From Prorocentrum cordatum (Eukaryota; Sar; Dinophyceae; Prorocentrales; Prorocentraceae), in assembly GCA_963575745.1 (NCBI GenBank), contig CAUYUJ010017797.1, positions 131,253 through 195,252 on the forward strand: 64,000 bases of DNA, in the 5' to 3' direction. The notes under the pieces were generated by a model that made no database searches, was not told the DNA's origin, and saw only the letters and a program-made list of their open reading frames with translations. Made by a program: the position numbers and the translations under genes. Shown one piece after another: positions 7,701 to 64,000 of the stretch. Each line of letters opens with the position of its first letter. Within the stretch, counting starts at the first letter, position 1.

Positions 7701-8525
7701 TCCTGGCTGGGCAGCACGGGCGCCTCCCCAGTGCCCTTTCTCGCGGATGGCATGCCGGCGCCCCCCCGCACTGCCGGCAGCCCCTTCCTCGGCGGGGCGG
7801 TGGGTGATACCGCAGAGGCCCCCTCCCCACCAAGCCGCAGCGTGCTGGGTTCGGTCAGGCCCCCCCCCCGACGCCCCTCCCGACGCCCTTCCCGACGCCT
7901 TTCCCGACGCCCACGGCCGACCCCGCTGACGCCCGTCCCGACGCCCTTACGACCACGACCCCCCCCCGACGCCTTCCCCGACGCCCGCGCCGGCCCCCCT
8001 GTCGCTGCCGTAGTGCCCGTAGGTTCGTCGCGGGTGGCCTTTCCCTCCTGGCCCCTGGCCCGGCCCTGCTGCTGCTGCTGCTGCTGTTGCTGCGGCTGCT
8101 GCTGCTGCTGCTGCTGCTCCTCCTCCTCCTCCTCCTCCTCCTCCTCTTCCTCCCCCTTGCTTTCCCTCCGCTTCTGTTCGTTGCTTCCCTCCCTTTCCTT
8201 TTCCTCCTGTCTCCTGCCTGCTGTTTCCGCCTGGCCCGTTTTCTGCCTGCCCGCCCGCCCCGCCGGCCCTGGCCTCCCGCCTGGGCGTTCGTCGTCGTCT
8301 GCCTGCTTCTCCCCTCCTCGCCCCCTTCCGCTGGACCGCGCTGCCTGCCCGGAACCACGAGGCGCTCAGGGTTTGCTCTGGTCACTTCTGCGGCTGATCG
8401 AATTGATTTCATCATCGCCATTTGCACCTCAAGTGCAACGGGATGAAAAGGTGAGGGCGCAAGGGTCATCTCATTCTGCTGGGCACAGGAAAGGTAGATC
8501 ATCCTGTGCTGGGACGCCCAAAGGC
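7701..8525. repeat. Low-complexity block: CCCGACGCC minisatellite, CTG and CTC microsatellites
   Basis: 7855-8000 repeats C(C)CGACGCC with variations. 8066-8150 is CTG then CTC triplets; on both strands this gives artificial poly-Leu, poly-Cys or poly-Ser frames. 8150-8525 shows no gene. Confidence 0.7.
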
Positions 8526-23391: not shown

Positions 23392-24088
23392 TCCGCCGCC
23401 GTGCCCCCTGGCACGTTGAGACGTGGTAGGATGCCAAGCTGTGTCTGGCAGGGATTCTGCACTGCCCCCCCCCCTCCACCAGCATCCAGTCGCACGCATC
23501 CGTCCCTCTCCCGAGGCACCCCGGGCGGCCCGACGCCACCGTGGCGCTCTTCAGGGCATCCAAGACGCCCAAGATGGCTCGGCCCAAGCAGGCCATCAGA
23601 GGCTGCCGACGTGGCCCAAGATGCCTCCATGACGGCCCAAGATGGACTCAAAACGGCCCAAGAAGGCTCCAAGAGAACCTCAAGGAGCGCCCGAAGAAGC
23701 CAAGATCATTATGTGGCTGATGGGTCTTCGTATTCCAAACTTTCTGGGCTTCCGTCAGATCAAGAGGCCAAAGAAGCCTCCAAAATGATCCAAGATGGCC
23801 TCAAGACGGCCCACGAGGGCCTCAAAACGGCCCCACCCAAGACGGCCCTCAAGAGGACGACGGCCCAAAAAGTGCCCTCACACGGTCCGGGCCACCGAGG
23901 CGCCCCCAAGGCGCTGCCAAGAGACCCCCAAGAGGCTCCCAAGCGGCCCCAAAGAGACACCCACCAGGCTCCCAAAACCCTTCAAAAGGCCTGAGGTGTG
24001 CCACGTGACGGCCTCCCGTGAACCCTCGAATAGTCACCTCCAGAATGCTGGACTGGCACGGTGGCAGGACTTGCCGCAGGCAGCTGGA
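23392..24088 (+). mobile_element. Non-autonomous TIR element of the same family as the tandem gene's intron
   Basis: The left end, TCCGCCGCCGTGCC, is followed by ACGTGGTAGGATGCCAAGCT. This matches the left end of the gene intron at 47546 (TCCGCCACCGTGCC...GTCGTGGCAGAATGCCACAG). The right end, GAATGCTGGACTGGCACGGT then GGCAGGACTTGCCGCAGGCA and GCTGGA, matches the intron's right end at 49590-49634. The interior is AAGANGGCC-type repeat, like the intron interior at 47.7-48.2 kb, but there is no CAT microsatellite. An 11-bp direct repeat (GATCCGCCGCC) starts at 23390 and at 24087. No transposase is encoded, and I see no exon beside it. Confidence 0.65.
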
Positions 24089-47244: not shown

Positions 47245-49292
47245 CTAAGGCGCTAAATGTCGCAGATCGATGCGCCTGTGGCAATCCTCCGGAGGAATCT
47301 GCTCTGCGCCGTGCTCGTCCTCGCCTAGCAAGCCTCCGACGGGAAACCCTGCGCGCACCAGGTTCTTGACGTAAAAGTTCAAAAAACCGGTGCCTTCGGG
47401 CGTGCGCCCATGGGCGACTTTCAACTGAACGTTCCCCAGACTGAGCCACTGAGGGCGCTCACCGCCACCGCCCTGCGCGTGGAAGCGAAAACCGCCGGGG
47501 CGTTTAGCCTCCGCCCATGCCCCTGTGACGTTCAGTTCTTGGAAGTCCGCCACCGTGCCTTGTGCAGGTCGCGTCGTGGCAGAATGCCACAGGGCTGTCT
47601 TGCAAGGATTCGCTGTTCTATTCCGCCGCGTGGCCGCGATCCCTCGCTAGAGAACGATTGGGCCGCGCTCCCGAGGCCCGATCCCTCGTAAAACGCAGTG
47701 GAGATGCGTCCCGAGCTTCCAAGACGGCCCATGCAGGCAACCAGGGACACCAAGATGGCCCAAGATGCCTCGAAAACTGCCCGAGAAGGCCCCAACGCGG
47801 CTCACTACGGCCGCAAGATAGCCCAGGATACATCCGAGACCCCGGAAACGACCACAAGAGGGCCACCAACTAGGTCGGCAGAAACCTACAACATAAACCC
47901 TCCGGGGTAATTGAATGAGCTTCGCACCCTCGACATTTCGGCAAGGTCAGCTCAAGACACCACAGGAAGCCTCCACGATAGCCCCAAGACGGCCCAAGAG
48001 GCCCCCAAGACGATCCCAAGATGGACAAAGAGGTCCCACGACTGCCAAAGAAGCATCCCAGACGGCCCCAAGACGGCCCAAGAGGCCCTCCCGTCGGACC
48101 CAAGACGGCCTTAGAAGGACCCCAGACACTTGCCATACGGCCAAGAGGGCCCAGAGATTCCAAAACAGAGAGCCCCCAGACGGCATAAGAGGGCCCCACG
48201 ACGGCCCAAGAAAACCCCAAGGACCACCCAGGACTGGTTCACATGAGGCCAAGAAAACCCCAATGGTCCGAACGAGCTCCATGAGAACTGCACAATCAAT
48301 GAAGCGGAAGCGTGTCGAAAGTGACGGCCTTACTCGTCCTCCTGCTCCTCCTCATGTTACTGCTCCTTCTCATCCTCCTCCGCCTCCTCCTTCTCCTCCC
48401 CCTCATCATCAACATCAGCATCATCACCATCAGCACCAGCATCATCGTCATCATAATCATCGTCGTTATCATCATCGGCAGCAACATCGCCATCAGCAGC
48501 ATCATCAGCATCATCAGTATCGTCGTCATCGTCGTCATCATTATTAGAATCATCATCAGCAGCATCAACAGTATCGCCACCACCATCACCGCCACCACCA
48601 CCACCATCACCATCGTTGTCAACAGCACCGTCATCATCACCATCATCATCAGCATGATCAGCATCACCACCATTATCATCAACATCATCATCATGGGTAT
48701 CATCCACCATTATCATCATCATGATCAGCATCATCATCACCAGCATCATCATCCCACAACCACCATCACCACCACAACCACCCCCACGATCATCATCATC
48801 ATCAGCAGCAGCAGCAGGATCAATAACGTCATCATCGTCATCATCATCCTCATCATCACGACATTCGTCATCGTTGTCATCATCACCACCACCATCATGC
48901 ATCATCAGCAGCATCATAGTCAGCAGCAGCATCAATATCCTCATCAGCATCATCACCATTGTCATCGCCATCATCATTATCGTCATCATCATCATGATCA
49001 CGATCATCCTGATCATGACCATCATCATCGTCATTGTCATCGTCATCCGCATCATCATTGTCATCATAATCAACATCATAATTATCCTCACCATCGACAT
49101 CATCTCCATCATCATGATCATGATCATGATCATCCTCATCATCATCATCATCATCATCATGATCAGTATCACTATCATCGTCATCATCATCATCATCATC
49201 GTCATCATCGTCGCTATCGTCCTGGTCATCGCCATCATCGTCGTCGTCCTCATCCTCATCATCATCCTCATCGTCACCCGTATCCCCAGCCA

Positions 49293-49327
<35 letters not shown>

Positions 49328-50308
49328 ACATCATCATCATCATCATCGTCATCGTCATCGGCATCGTCATCACCAGTATCATCATCATCAACACCGTCAT
49401 CGTCATCCACTTACTTTTCCTCCTCCTCATCAACATCATCACCACCATCACCAACACCATCATCACCAATACCAACATCATCCCCATCATCCTTACCAAC
49501 GTCATCCTCATCACAATTCTGTCCATCCTGTAGACACAAAGTGGCGCACATAACGGCCTCTCGTGTCCCCTTGGAAAGTCGCCACCCGGAATGCTGGGCT
49601 GGCACGGTGGCGGGGCTTGCGACAAGCAACTGGATATATGTCAGCACACTGTCCACCCAACCTCTCCGCGTCTGCGTCTACTCGAAGCAGCGTGTTCTCA
49701 ACGTTTCCCTTTGGGACGTTGATGAGAACGTGCCTGCCTGTCTTCATCAGGTCGAAGCGCTGTCCGTAGATGTTTTGCAGATGCGGATCTCCAACTGCGG
49801 AAGCAGACGCCGGGCGGGTGATCCTGGTGCAGCCCACTGGTAATGAAAACCCCGCCGTCGTATCCCCGATGTTCGTGGGGTTGCCAAGAAACTGCTGGCT
49901 CCAATCGGAAATGACCCCTGGATCGGGGCCGCCGTAGCCGACGTACAAAACGCAACACTTGCCTCCACACACATGGTGATTGTTCCGTGAGAGCGCCTCG
50001 CACCACGAGAACCCCTCGCAGGCAGCCTTGCACTCGTCGTCGCTCATGGCGCCTCCCGCAGCGCCGTTGTAGTAGCGCAGGGGGGTCACCCCCGAGGAGG
50101 TGAGACAGTCTCCCGAGCCCAGACTGGTCCACGAGGCGGCTGGCGTGGCCCCGCGGGCGGCGAGGGTGCTGGAGTTGGTGTCGGCGCTGCCGCTGTCGAA
50201 GAGACTGCTGAGCTCCTGGTCGAGGTCCGAGCTCCTGGCGGAGAGGGCGGTGGCGCGCCGGTCGGCGCAGCAGCAGAGCAGGACGAGGGCCCGCACGGAG
50301 CACCGCAT
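47245..50308 (-). CDS. Secreted PAN-like/VWD-like protein, gene copy 1 (two exons, one intron)
   Basis: Exon 1 runs 50308 to about 49635 and exon 2 from about 47545 to 47245 (TAG). Joined, they give about 324 residues. Residues 1-22 form a signal peptide (MRCSVRALVLLCCC...). Residues 66-165 are a Cys-rich PAN/apple-like region (Cys 68, 93, 97, 103, 114, 118, 119, 160). From 171, SAVGDPHLQNIYGQRFDLMK marks a VWD-like module. Exon 2 continues it with FQELNVTGAWAE, LKVAHGRT, LNFYVKNLVRAG and VGGLLGEDEH. I recall this GDPH...FQ.lNvTG.w...GGLLGEDdH architecture from many dinoflagellate secreted proteins of unknown function; it probably acts extracellularly or at the surface. The ATG at 50308 was chosen because the signal peptide starts there; the upstream open frame is likely 5' leader. 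Splice borders are discussed under the intron. Confidence 0.75.
47546..49634 (-). mobile_element. Intron of gene copy 1 = TIR-bearing introner-like element, 2089 bp
   Basis: Plus-strand left end: TCCGCCACCGTGCC (47546). Near the right end, GGCACGGTGGCGGG (49601-49614) is its inverted repeat, then 20 bp further to CTGGA (49634). Both ends match the free-standing element at 23392-24088. The interior is an AAGACGGCC-type repeat (47720-48250), then a CAT microsatellite (48400-49520). Removing exactly TCC...GGA joins GAC ATA TA to C TTC CAA, in frame (DIYFQE). The alternative GT-AG intron (about 49647 to 47559) is also in frame and gives CTVADFQE. Which is used cannot be told from DNA. Confidence 0.7.
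48400..49520 (+). repeat. (CAT)n microsatellite inside the intron of gene copy 1
   Basis: About 1.1 kb of CAT/CAC/CAG triplets with GTC interruptions, conserved in position in unit B (55665-56790). In unit C the array breaks at about 63016. Confidence 0.95.
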
Positions 50309-54507: not shown

Positions 54508-56406
54508 CTAAGGCGCTAAACGTCGCAGATCGATGCGCCTGTGGCAATCCTCCGGAGGAATCTGCTCTGCGCCGTGCTCGTCCTCGCCTAGCAAGCCTCC
54601 GACGGGAAACCCTGCGCGCACCAGGTTCTTGACGTAAAAGTTCAAAAAACAGGTGCCGTCGGGCGTGCGCCCATGGGCGACTTTCAACTGAACGTTCCCC
54701 AGACTGAGCCACTGAGGGCGCTCACCGCCACCGCCCTGCGCGTGGAAGCGAAAACCGCCGGGGCGTTTAGCCTCCGCCCATGCCCCTGTGACGTTCAGTT
54801 CTTGGAAGTCCGCCACCGTGCCTTGTGCAGGTCGCGTCGTGGCAGAATGCCACAGGGCTGTCTTGCAAGGATTCGCTGTTCTATTCCGCCGCGTGGCCGC
54901 GATCCCTCGCTAGAGAACGATTGGGCCGCGCTCCCGAGGCCCGATCCCTCGTAAAACGCAGTGGAGATGCGTCCCGAGCTTCCGAGACGGCCCATGCAGG
55001 CAACCAGGGACACCAAGATGGCCCAAGATGCCTCGAAAACTGCCCGAGAAGGCCCCAACGCGGCTCACTACGGCCGCAAGATAGCCCAGGATACATCCGA
55101 GACCCCGGAAACGACCACAAGAGGGCCACCAACTAGGTCGGCAGAAACCTACAACATAAACCCTCCGGGGTAATTGAATGAGCTTCGCACCCTCGACATT
55201 TCGGCAAGGTCAGCTCAAGACACCCCAGGAAGCCTCCACGATAGCCCCAAGACGGCCCAAGAGGCAAGAGGCCCCCAAGACGATCCCAAGATGGACAAAG
55301 AGGTCCCACGACTGCCAAAGAAGCATCCCAGACGGCCCCAAGACGGCCCAAGAGGCCCTCCCGTCGGACCCAAGACGGCCTTAGAAAGCCCCCAGACACT
55401 TGCCATACGGCCAAGAGGGCCCAGAGATTCCAAAACAGAGAGCCCCCAGACGGCATAAGAGGGCCCCACGACGGCCCAAGAAAACCCCAAGGACCACCCA
55501 GGACTGGTTCACATGAGGCCAAGAACACCCCAATGGTCCGAACGAGCTCCATGAGAACTGCACAATCAATGAAGCGGAAGCGTGTCGAAAGTGACGGCCT
55601 TACTCGTCCTCCTGCTCCTCCTCATGTTGCTGCTCCTTCTCATCCTCCTCCGCCTCCTCCTTCTCCTCCCCCTCATCATCAACATCAGCATCATCACCAT
55701 CAGCACCAGCATCATCGTCATCATAATCATCGTCGTTATCATCATCGGCAGCAACATCGCCATCAGCAGCATCATCAGCATCATCAGTATCGTCGTCATC
55801 GTCGTCATCATTCTTAGAATCATCATCAGCAGCATCAACAGTATCGCCACCACCATCACCGCCACCACCACCACCATCACCATCGTTGTCAACAGCACCG
55901 TCATCATCACCATCATCATCAGCATGATCAGCATCACCACCATTATCATCAACATCATCATCATGGGTATCATCCACCATTGTCATCATCATGATCAGCA
56001 TCATCATCACCAGCATCATCATCACCACAACCACCATCACCACCACAACCACCCCCACGATCATCATCATCATCAGCAGCAGCAGGATCAATAACGTCAT
56101 CATCGTCATCATCATCCTCATCATCACGACATTCGTCATCGTTGTCATCATCACCACCACCATCATGCATCATCAGCAGCATCATAGTCAGCAGCAGCAT
56201 CAATATCCTCATCAGCATCATCACCATTGTCATCGCCATCATCATTATCGTCATCATCATCATGATCACGATCATCCTGATCATGACCATCATCATCGTC
56301 ATTGTCATCGTCATCCGCATCATCATCGTCATCATAATCAACATCATAATTATCCTCACCATCGACATCATTTCCATCATCATGATCATGATCATGATCA
56401 TCCTCC

Positions 56407-56440
<34 letters not shown>

Positions 56441-57573
56441 GATCATTATCACTATCATCGTCATCATCATCATCATCATCGTCATCATCGTCGCTATCGT
56501 CCTGGTCATCGCCATCATCGTCGTCGTCCTCATCCTCATCATCATCCTCATCGTCACCCGTATCCCCAGCCACATCATCATCATCATCATCATCAGCATC
56601 ATCATCATCGTCATCGTCATCGGCATCGTCATCACCAGTATCATCATCATCAACATCGTCATCGTCATCCACTTACTTTTCCTCCTCCTCCTCATCAACA
56701 TCATCACCACCATCACCAACACCATCATCACCAATACCAACATCATCCCCATCATCCTTACCAACGTCATCCTCATCACAATTCTGTCCATCCTGTAGAC
56801 ACAAAGTGGCGCACATAACGGCCTCCCGTGTCCCCTTGGAAAGTCGCCACCCGGAATGCTGGGCTGGCACGGTGGCGGGGCTTGCGACAAGCAACTGGAT
56901 ATATGTCAGCACACTGTCCACCCAACCTCTCCGCGTCTGCGTCTACTCGAAGCAGCGTGTTCTCAACGTTTCCCTTTGGGACGTTGAGGAGAACGTGCCT
57001 GCCTGTCTTCATCAGGTCGAAGCGCTGTCCGTAGATGTTCTGCAGATGCGGATCTCCAACTGCGGAAGCAGACGCCGGGCGGGTGATCCTGGTGCAGCCC
57101 ACTGGTAATGAACCCCCCGCCGTCGTATCCCCGATGTTCGTGGGGTTGCCAACCAACTGCTGGCCCCAACCGGAAATGACCCCTGGATCGGGGCCGTCGT
57201 AACCGACGTACAGAACGCAACACTTGCCTCCACACACCTGGTGATTGTTCCGTGAGAGCGCCTCGCACCACGAGAACCCCTCGCAGGCAGCCTTGCACTC
57301 GTCGTCGCTCATGGCGCCTCCCGCAGCGCCGTTGTAGTAGCGCAGGGGGGTCACCCCCGAGGAGGTGAGACAGTCTCCCGAGCCCAGACTGGTCCACGAG
57401 GCGGCCGGCGTGGCCCCGCGGGCGGCGAGGGTGCTGGAGTTGGTGTCAGCGCTGCCGCTGTCGAAGAGACTGCTGCGCTCCTGGTCGAGGTCCGAGCTCC
57501 TGGCGGAGAGGGCGGTGGCGCGCCGGTCGGCGCAGCAGCAGAGCAGGACGAGGGCCCGCACGGAGCACCGCAT
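54508..57573 (-). CDS. Secreted PAN-like/VWD-like protein, gene copy 2
   Basis: Same structure as copy 1: exon 1 from 57573 to about 56900, exon 2 from about 54808 to 54508, about 324 residues. Signal peptide, all Cys residues, GDPH and GGLLGEDEH are kept. Replacements relative to copy 1 cluster in residues 125-154: YDGPDPGVISGWGQQLVGNP against YGGPDPGVISDWSQQFLGNP, then AGGS against AGFS. In exon 2, TPDGTCFLNF replaces TPEGTGFLNF, adding a Cys. Neighbours and likely control are as for copy 1. Both copies have intact frames, so both could be expressed. Confidence 0.75.
54809..56899 (-). mobile_element. Intron of gene copy 2 = TIR-bearing introner-like element, 2091 bp
   Basis: Ends are identical to those of copy 1 (TCCGCCACCGTGCC at 54809; GGCACGGTGGCGGG at 56866; CTGGA ending 56899). 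The interior has the same repeat and microsatellite order. Confidence 0.7.
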
Positions 57574-61700: not shown

Positions 61701-63016
61701 TAAGGCGCTAAATGTCGCAAATCGATGCGCCTGTGGCAATCCTCCGGAGGAATCTGCTCTGCGCCGTGCTCGTCCTCGCCTAGCAAGCCTCCGACGGGAA
61801 ACCCTGCGCGCACCAGGTTCTTGACGTAAAAGTTCAAAAAACTGGTGCCTTCGGGCGTGCGCCCATGGGCGACTTTCAACTGAACGTTCCCCAGACTGAG
61901 CCACTGAGGGCGCTCACCGCCACCGCCCTGCGCGTGGAAGCGAAAACCGCCGGGGCGTTTAGCCTGCGCCCATGCCCCTGTGACGTTCAGTTCTTGGAAG
62001 TCCGCCACCGTGCCTTGTGCAGGTCGCGTCGTGGCAGAATGCCACAGGGCTGTCTTGCAAGGATTCGCTGTTCTATTCCGCCGCGTGGCCGCGATCCCTC
62101 GCTAGAGAACGATTGGGCCGCGCTCCCGAGGCCCGATCCCTCGTAAAACGCAGTGGAGATGCGTCCCGAGCTTCCGAGACGGCCCATGCAGGCAACCAGG
62201 GACACCAAGATGGCCCAAGATGCCTCGAAAACTGCCCGAGAAGGCCCCAACGCGGCTCACTACGGCCGCAAGATAGCCCAGGATACATCCGAGACCCCGG
62301 AAACGACCACAAGAGGGCCACCAACTAGGTCGGCAGAAACCTACAACATAAACCCTCCGGGGTAATTGAATGAGCTTCGCACCCTCGACATTTCGGCAAG
62401 GTCAGCTCAAGACACCCCAGGAAGCCTCCACGATAGCCCCAAGACGGCCCAAGAGGCCCCCAAGACGATCCCCAAGATGGACAAAGAGGTCCCACGACTG
62501 CCAAAGAGGCATCCCAGACGGCCCCAAGACGGCCCAAGAGGCCCTCCCGTCGGACCCAAGACGGCCTTAGAAGGCCCCCAGACACTTGCCATACGGCCAA
62601 GAGGGCCCAGAGATTCCAAAACAGAGAGCCCCCAGACGGCATAAGAGGGCCCCACGACGGCCCAAGAAAACCCCAAGGACCACCCAGGACTGGTTCACAT
62701 GAGGCCAAGAAAACCCCAATGGTCCGAACGAGCTCCATGAGAACTGCACAATCAATGAAGCGGAAGCGTGTCGAAAGTGACGGCCTTACTCGTCCTCCTG
62801 CTCCTCCTCATGTTGCTGCTCCTTCTCATCCTCCTCCGCCTCCTCCTTCTCCTCCCCCTCATCATCAACATCAGCATCATCACCATCAGCACCAGCATCA
62901 TCGTCATCATAATCATCGTCGTTATCATCATCGGCAGCAACATCGCCATCAGCAGCATCATCAGCATCATCAGTATCGTCGTCATCGTCGTCATCATTAT
63001 TAGAATCATCATCAGC
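58718..63016 (-). repeat. Tandem unit C, truncated inside the gene intron
   Basis: Follows unit B to about 63010, then switches within the CAT microsatellite to the dispersed segment that also starts at 37788. About 72 bp are missing relative to A and B between AGCAAAAGTT and ACGTCGCAAG (junction near 61644). Confidence 0.9.
61700..62000 (-). pseudogene. Gene copy 3, exon 2 only
   Basis: Encodes FQELNVTGAWAQAKRPGG through GGLLGEDEHGAEQIPPEDC to the TAG at 61700, intact. Exon 1, with signal peptide and PAN-like region, and the promoter are lost, because the unit ends in the intron at about 63016. The remaining intron part (62001-63016) keeps the TCCGCCACCGTGCC end. Replacements relative to copy 1 include TPEGTSFLNF. 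Without exon 1 it cannot make the normal protein, unless the junction is an assembly error. Confidence 0.75.
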
Positions 63017-64000
63017 ACGACAGTCACAGGCACCACCTCGTTGAGTCCCCGCACACCGCCCGCAGCGGGCGCAACGCGGGTCTACAACTTGTTTCCTGAC
63101 TTTGTGGGCTGCGCACAGAGAGTCTGCGATTTTCAATTCCGATTCCAGGCCCTTTTGCGTTCTTGTGCCCGTCACACCGAAGATTGGTTGAATACTATCT
63201 TACCCCGGCTGCCGTTCGCCTTTCATCCTCTCCGTGGGTGCCGAAACTGGCGTGGCTTGTTTGTCTCCTATTCTCCTCCCTCCCCCTTTCCTCCCCTCCC
63301 TCTTCCCTCCGTTTCCTTTCCTCTTTTGCACGCAACTGTTTTTAAACAGCCAACATACCTTGTTTTTTAATATTTTGCTTGCCTGAGCGCGGAGTTGGTG
63401 AGAGAAATTGCATAGCGGGATAGGCCGAAAAAAAAACGTCTGCTTCTTCATGGAAAATATTGGCGTGGTTCGTGGAGCGAGGCAAATTCAGTGCTTCTTT
63501 GCAACAATGCTTTTGGTGCCGACGACATATCAGAGCTTGACGCCACGCGCGGACCCAAATTAGACCTCGCCATCCCTGGGGGGCTGCGATTTGTGAAACT
63601 GTCGCCACTTTCGAGGCCTGCTGGGGGGCCCAGCATAGTGACGCCACGCGCGGACCCAAATTAGACCTCGCCATCCCTGGGGGCTGCGATCTGTGAAACT
63701 GTCGCCGCTTTCGATGCCTGCTGGGGGGCCCAGCACAGTGACGCCACGCGCGGACCCAAATCAGACCTCTGAGATCCCCGCTTTCGAAGTGGCTAGGGTT
63801 GCTCAGGGATTGTAACTAATCAGTTTGATCTAGTCCTTGTCCTGCAGCCAGTGTCCTGCGAGTCTCCCGAATTCCGTCTGCAGACATATGTAACCCTCGC
63901 TCCGTCGTCGCCCCCCTTATAAAGTGTCCTAAACTATTTGCGCCCCGCGTTTGCGCAGGGGTTGGGTACGTCGCCAAGGTAATTTGTTTCGGAGAAATTG
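63017..64000 (+). repeat. ~1-kb dispersed segment, copy 3 (runs off the window)
   Basis: Colinear with 37788-38783, including about 2 units of the 101-bp repeat (63540-63770) and the TTATAAAGTGTCC and GGTTGGGTACGTCG distal end. Confidence 0.9.

Follow-up and report, generated by a model that had tools for sequence, protein, structure and literature searches.

Helitron2-like elements as candidate introns removed exactly at their ends in two genes of the dinoflagellate Prorocentrum cordatum

We describe two protein-coding genes of Prorocentrum cordatum that are each interrupted by a member of the same mobile element family, one in the 64,000-nt stretch of contig CAUYUJ010017797.1 analysed here (the window) and the other the vitamin B6 gene PdxS. 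Comparison of both genes with uninterrupted protein sequences suggests that these non-autonomous, Helitron2-like coding insertions are cut from the RNA exactly at the element ends, without GT/GC/GA...AG borders, a reading to which we assign a probability of roughly 0.7. The family is large, with 10,206 exact copies of its end motif in the assembly, and we propose more tentatively that its coding insertions are excised precisely under the guidance of their terminal structures and independently of GT-AG. The features on which the argument rests are as follows.

47245..47545, minus strand: exon 2 of the window gene (stop codon 47247-47245; P0001 matches to its last residue)
47546..49634, minus strand for the gene, the element itself reading plus: intron consisting of the entire Helitron-like element (placed by element ends, P0001 junction and border scan)
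47546..47559, plus strand: inverted repeat TCCGCCACCGTGCC, flush with the element 5' end
49601..49613, plus strand: inner repeat copy GGCACGGTGGCGG, 21 nt inside the element 3' end (49634)
49615..49627, plus strand: hairpin GCTTG-CGA-CAAGC, between the inner repeat and the element 3' end (read from the sequence)
49635..50308, minus strand: exon 1 of the tandem gene (open frame, ATG 50308-50306)
54809..56899, minus strand: tandem copy 2, same intron, 2091 nt
62001..63017, minus strand: tandem copy 3, element start only (read by eye and by 14-mer match)
23392..24088, plus strand: free-standing relative of 697 nt with both ends as in the window intron
Locus L049, 4150-4386: element intron of PdxS, 237 nt, exactly between GVFVGSGI and FKSTEPEKR

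The spliced window gene (50308-49635 joined to 47545-47245, minus strand) has two exons and 324 residues, and its 2089-nt intron displays TC...GA borders on the gene strand, or AT...GG after a one-base slide. The protein matches no Pfam family at thresholds up to E 1, and has 478 homologues at E values up to 0.001, the best 120 of which are considered below. Aligned with it over 2068 positions, copy 2 of the intron shows 14 substitutions, and the alignment has a further 44 gap columns. In copy 3 the gene is truncated within the element, at about 63017, from where unrelated sequence begins. By eye, the intron interior (window 48370-49520) is mostly an ATC/CAT-type simple repeat, which accounts for much of the intron length.

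A first-pass annotation, prepared from the letters of the window, had drawn the intron borders by homology to the element at 23392-24088 and claimed that its exact deletion keeps the reading frame. Both ends are indeed shared by the two elements, and deletion of 47546-49634 yields in-frame GGQCADIYFQELNVTG. The same annotation had noted a competing GT-AG intron, 49647-47559, which proved likewise to be in frame, with a product that differs at the junction (GGQCTVADFQELN). The discriminating test it offered, CADIY against CTVAD, could be carried out on P0001, a protein predicted from MMETSP transcriptome data and spanning residues 88-324 of the spliced product: it carries CADIY, reading GGQCADIYFQELN and GGQCADIYFQELNVTG across the junction. 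P0001 is identical to the element-exact product at 234/237 positions and to the GT-AG product at 230/237, where the four junction residues additionally fail. A comparison of homologues at this site, also suggested there, points the same way. The junction motif is recognisable in 100 of the 120 homologues listed (the best 120 of 478; it is absent in 20, including P0002), and in these 100 the second and fourth junction residues, D and Y, are invariant and match the element-exact product, while the GT-AG product (TVAD) has neither at its position. A spliceosomal GT-AG intron at 49647-47559, with the product CTVADFQELN, keeps the frame and would use borders known in the P. cordatum genome (PMC10666404), but P0001 is without the four residues that it predicts and it would lose both residues invariant in the 100 homologues; being contradicted by the transcript-derived P0001, this border was rejected for the window gene, and we regard it as extremely improbable.

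A scan of border pairs around the window intron (donors within 40 nt, acceptors from -60 to +40 nt) obtained the P0001 peptide from TC-GA, AT-GG and CC-AC only, and none of the GT/GC/GA-AG pairs scanned yields it. TC-GA is the element-exact pair; AT-GG lies one base earlier and gives an identical mRNA; CC-AC lies one base later and is synonymous. As judged from the predicted protein, TC-GA and AT-GG are indistinguishable, and CC-AC also fits the window gene taken alone. The element-exact junction would have ...GACATATA on the exon 1 side and CTTCC on the exon 2 side. Searched with up to 3 mismatches allowed, a 35-mer joined across it yields 0 matches in the assembly, and the unspliced donor junction, searched in the window, was found at both complete copies. 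An intronless copy as the source of the window transcript was rejected on the grounds that the joined junction is without a match in the assembly. The NCBI model of this gene in P. cordatum, P0002, agrees with exon 1 at every one of 225 residues and terminates ...CADIYPN. This end would fit, for example, a GT donor at 49630, 4 nt inside the element, joined to an AG at 47538, 8 nt past it, from which we infer that the model represents annotation forced onto GT-AG.

PdxS was met at locus L049 while sampling other copies of the element. Its element intron likewise appears to be removed exactly at the element ends, without GT/GC/GA-AG borders. The insertion point is gapless in both PDB alignments shown, and SG[IV]FKS runs across it in 120/120 listed homologues (100 SGIFKS, 20 SGVFKS). 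P0121, an environmental JGI protein of 323 residues (29 members, 3 contigs up to 1828 nt), is continuous at the element site and matches 99 percent of a 249-residue query covering exons 2 to 5 at 100 percent identity; exon 6 is also matched in it, and exon 1 at L049 shows slight differences. Because all five introns are missing from such short contigs, P0121 is probably cDNA-derived. The element-exact junction would read ...AGCGGCA and then TATTC. Ordinary-border solutions are available for the other four introns (intron 1 GC-AG, intron 2 GT-AG, intron 3 GA-AG, intron 5 GT-AG), whereas the same border scan has no GT/GC/GA-AG solution for the element intron, its solutions being GC-GC, CA-CG, AT-GG, TC-GA, CT-AT, TA-TA and AG-AT. 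TC-GA and AT-GG are the solutions common to the window gene and PdxS. This contrast of borders within one gene is the strongest single result of the study. The 3' end of the PdxS element has 6/35 mismatches to its type, which suggests an old insertion, and the 4.5 kb searched upstream contain no tandem copy of PdxS. The annotation's central suggestion, element-exact removal in a dinoflagellate gene, thus receives support, at the protein level, from P0001 and from PdxS.

The element itself is defined by its ends. Inverted repeats are present in the window intron where they had been reported, TCCGCCACCGTGCC at 47546-47559 and its 14-nt inverse GGCACGGTGGCGGG at 49601-49614, and they are asymmetric, one lying flush at 47546 and the other 21 nt within the 49634 end, after which comes a small hairpin; the last 28 nt fold at -6.9 kcal/mol. 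The 14-mer, with up to 2 mismatches, occurs 11 times in the window against 1.6 expected from shuffles, and its exact copies number 5216 and 4990 on the two strands of the assembly (4,128,499,153 bases, 21,875 contigs) against 40 and 45 for a reversed control. We fetched 60 stretches around exact 14-mers, taking the first listed without selection for genes; 31 elements with both ends recognisable, window included, constitute the sample (29/31 lie outside the window), and the other stretches contain no recognisable partner end within their length. Also left out of the 31 are L016 and L038, both of which could be paired, and L052, as degenerate or in microsatellite sequence, and window copy 2 was not recounted.

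The sampled elements, which were picked by the exact 5' motif and had their 3' ends placed by hand after the hairpin, have the 14-mer flush with the 5' end and a 13-mer inner repeat some 20 nt short of the 3' end, followed by the hairpin. They fall into two types with the 5' end TCCGCCACCGTGCC common to both, and the type 2 consensus has a visible CGTGCC/GGCACG pairing. In every one of the 31 the ends fold, at raw, unshuffled energies of -5.8 to -23.2 kcal/mol for the first 40 nt and -3.3 to -10.2 kcal/mol for the last 28 nt. An A precedes the element in 27/31 copies and a T follows it in 23/31, with both present in 20/31. A target-site duplication was rejected, as none of at least 4 bases occurs in the 31 copies: flank pairs sharing at least 4 bases number 0/31 against 0.58 expected from shuffled pairs, and those sharing 3 number 2/31. 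To our knowledge, Helitron2 and Helentron elements are not known as introns.

In Helitron2 elements the terminal inverted repeats, 8-15 bp long, are placed asymmetrically: the 5' copy lies 0-2 bp from its end, and the 3' copy lies about 20-30 bp inside the other end and has a hairpin behind it. A second hairpin, at the 5' end, includes the 5' repeat, and target-site duplications are absent (PMC3627910). The asymmetric repeats, the 3' hairpin and the lack of duplication typical of Helitron2/Helentron elements (PMC3627910, PMC4067079) all recur here, the difference being that the present elements target A|T, like canonical Helitrons. By their ends and flanks the elements resemble Helitron2, and a RepHel partner is putative. 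A cut-and-paste TIR transposon or MITE would equally possess inverted repeats of 13-14 nt, and RepHel is only putative in the family; however, the asymmetry of the repeats, the hairpin outboard of the inner one, the A|T flanks of 20/31 copies and the want of any flank pair sharing at least 4 bases (0.58 expected in 31) make such an origin rather unlikely. Of the "TIR element" in the first-pass annotation, therefore, the terminal inverted repeats survive and the classic TIR/MITE identity probably does not.

Our preferred explanation of the present genes is as follows. A non-autonomous Helitron2-like (rolling-circle) element would have inserted into the coding sequence of the window gene without target-site duplication, and before the tandem duplication of that gene. 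The entire element would then leave the RNA precisely at its ends, at TC...GA borders (or AT...GG by the one-base slide) rather than GT/GC/GA...AG, restoring the reading frame. The smaller PdxS copy would be removed likewise, and the elements would constitute a non-canonical introner family. It is conceivable that excision is guided by the termini, that is, by the inverted repeats and the hairpin next to the 5' border on the gene strand, in the manner of SOS splicing or of euglenid introns. SOS splicing depends on the inverted repeats of the transposon. We put forward termini-guided excision tentatively, with a permissive spliceosome as its close rival. The element ends are complementary over 13 bp (-32.3 kcal/mol), and relative to shuffles the end-to-end duplex scores z -4.1 in the window gene and z -4.0 in copy 2; in PdxS it scores z -1.4, and the four ordinary introns of that gene score z -1.4 to 0.3. 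The terminal stem is not formed in the minimum-energy folds of the window gene or PdxS. Hence the earlier idea that the inverted repeats could join the intron ends is favoured by the strong pairing in the window gene but not by PdxS or by the folds, and the weak PdxS pairing together with the missing terminal stem keeps structure-guided excision a conjecture.

The alternative in which a permissive U2-type spliceosome, and not end pairing, performs the exact removal on AT-GG or TC-GA borders is a serious one, though we would not place it at even odds. Dinoflagellates already tolerate GC and GA at the 5' site (PMC10666404), the pairing of the ends is weak in PdxS, and on the gene strand both introns start alike in the sliding reading, with ATCCAGTTGC and ATCTAGGTGC. 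Yet such a spliceosome would have to accept two non-canonical borders at once in a gene whose four other introns end in AG, and it leaves aside the coincidence of the junction with the element ends in both genes. A different objection is that strains or copies lacking the insertions supplied the transcripts, the element-bearing alleles being dead or unspliced. As exact removal recreates the empty site, the protein of an uninserted allele would look no different; moreover, P0001 is listed without species or strain, P0121 is environmental, and further PdxS copies in the genome are conceivable. Against this stand the lack of the joined window junction in the assembly by the 35-mer search, the insertion shared by the tandem copies, the PdxS exons that are intact on either side of the element and match P0121, and the eroded PdxS element 3' end (6/35 mismatches), which suggests age; the same coincidence would in addition be required in two genes. 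We therefore consider an insertion-free source unlikely, and retain excision at the element ends as the preferred reading.

Several known systems invite comparison. In Amoebophrya (PMC7789003), introners lack GT-AG and have inverted repeats of 8-20 nt at both ends, a hairpin being proposed to join the junctions; direct repeats of 3-5 nt overlap the borders, and the splice sites vary relative to the repeats. The dinoflagellate lineage, the repeated introns, the end inverted repeats and the absence of GT-AG are likenesses, whereas the present elements have Helitron-like ends, no target duplication and removal at element ends in two genes. Border-overlapping direct repeats of 3-5 nt were not found in the 31 copies, the two 3-base flank matches being the only ones. 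The introners of Symbiodinium and others have TIRs and TSDs, the latter lacking in some families, and use GY-AG splice sites borne by the element or recruited from the target (PMC9860276); they too are mobile elements making introns, but no use of GY-AG fits here. As with introners, introns of the present family stand in several unrelated genes, the window gene and PdxS and probably L066. Dinoflagellate introners are also the subject of Roy et al. 2023, as cited in PMC11453091. In SOS splicing, animal DNA transposons are removed from mRNA outside the GT-AG rule, with ligation by RTCB (review PMC13247085); the likeness lies in a transposon cut from mRNA without that rule, and the difference in its being an animal system for which RTCB is reported. 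Euglenid nonconventional introns have no conserved borders, paired ends and a proposed MITE-like origin (PMC6221363); they belong to another lineage, and in P. cordatum a source element family can be identified, while a role for end pairing is conjectural. Introners are reported for P. cordatum, whose introns are enriched in inverted repeats at both ends (PMC10666404); the donor table of that study includes GT, GC and GA only, so that it would overlook or misplace a TC-GA intron that is element-exact, and its main text does not mention Helitrons. In a literature drawn mostly from outside subscription journals, we found no report of introns made of Helitron-like elements and excised precisely at the element ends.

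The present observations link non-GT-AG introns to mobile elements of an identifiable kind; element ends and RNA junctions are independently defined and coincide in two genes. Removal of non-canonical introns thereby becomes open to testing in a strain that is in culture and for which RNA-seq is published. Gene models limited to GT/GC/GA-AG can break such genes, as in the NCBI model of the window gene, which halts just within the intron. If the more tentative, structure-guided reading is true, insertions into coding sequence would be almost silent, and the annotation may lack or misdraw hundreds of introns of this sort. P. cordatum is a red-tide alga, and one of the two affected genes, PdxS, makes vitamin B6.

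Among the 29 sampled elements outside the window, one intron, that of PdxS, is shown and one more, at L066, is likely. At L066, together with L071 and L072 (G000:C81:172000-176035), a 389-codon open frame enters a 1283-nt element whose first bases create a stop, and coding-like MFPELLKPPPVHV continues directly past the element; this is probably a third element intron, judging from the open frames. At L053 (G000:C59:298583-300433) a strongly coding-like exon, LDKAEQTNVDPGDG..., starts at the element 5' end, and an AG acceptor about 10 nt downstream fits as well. A single query of the L066 and L053 peptides, joined by an X linker, had no homologues, and the Pfam matches of both are under the curated cut-offs. 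L028 (899-1500, G000:C8) has a minus-strand exon that resembles CNG channels (PDB E 2e-5) and starts flush with an element 5' end; both element-exact removal and an AG acceptor 8 nt downstream fit there, and the upstream exon is absent from the 5 kb searched, up to the contig end. A codon-usage score of the flanks separates poorly: the three window copies, and the flank of PdxS too, fall short of the 95th percentile of the background. At L016 (minus, at 8521), L039 (201) and L050 (351) the element end has an identical GAC-repeat flank, this insertion having probably been duplicated together with its host sequence. Just after the element, a sequence beginning TCCGCC or GCCCGCC and CCCCCTG... 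is shared by the copies at window 24089, L011, L045, L046, L057 and L061, so that some of these may be composite insertions or lie inside another repeat.
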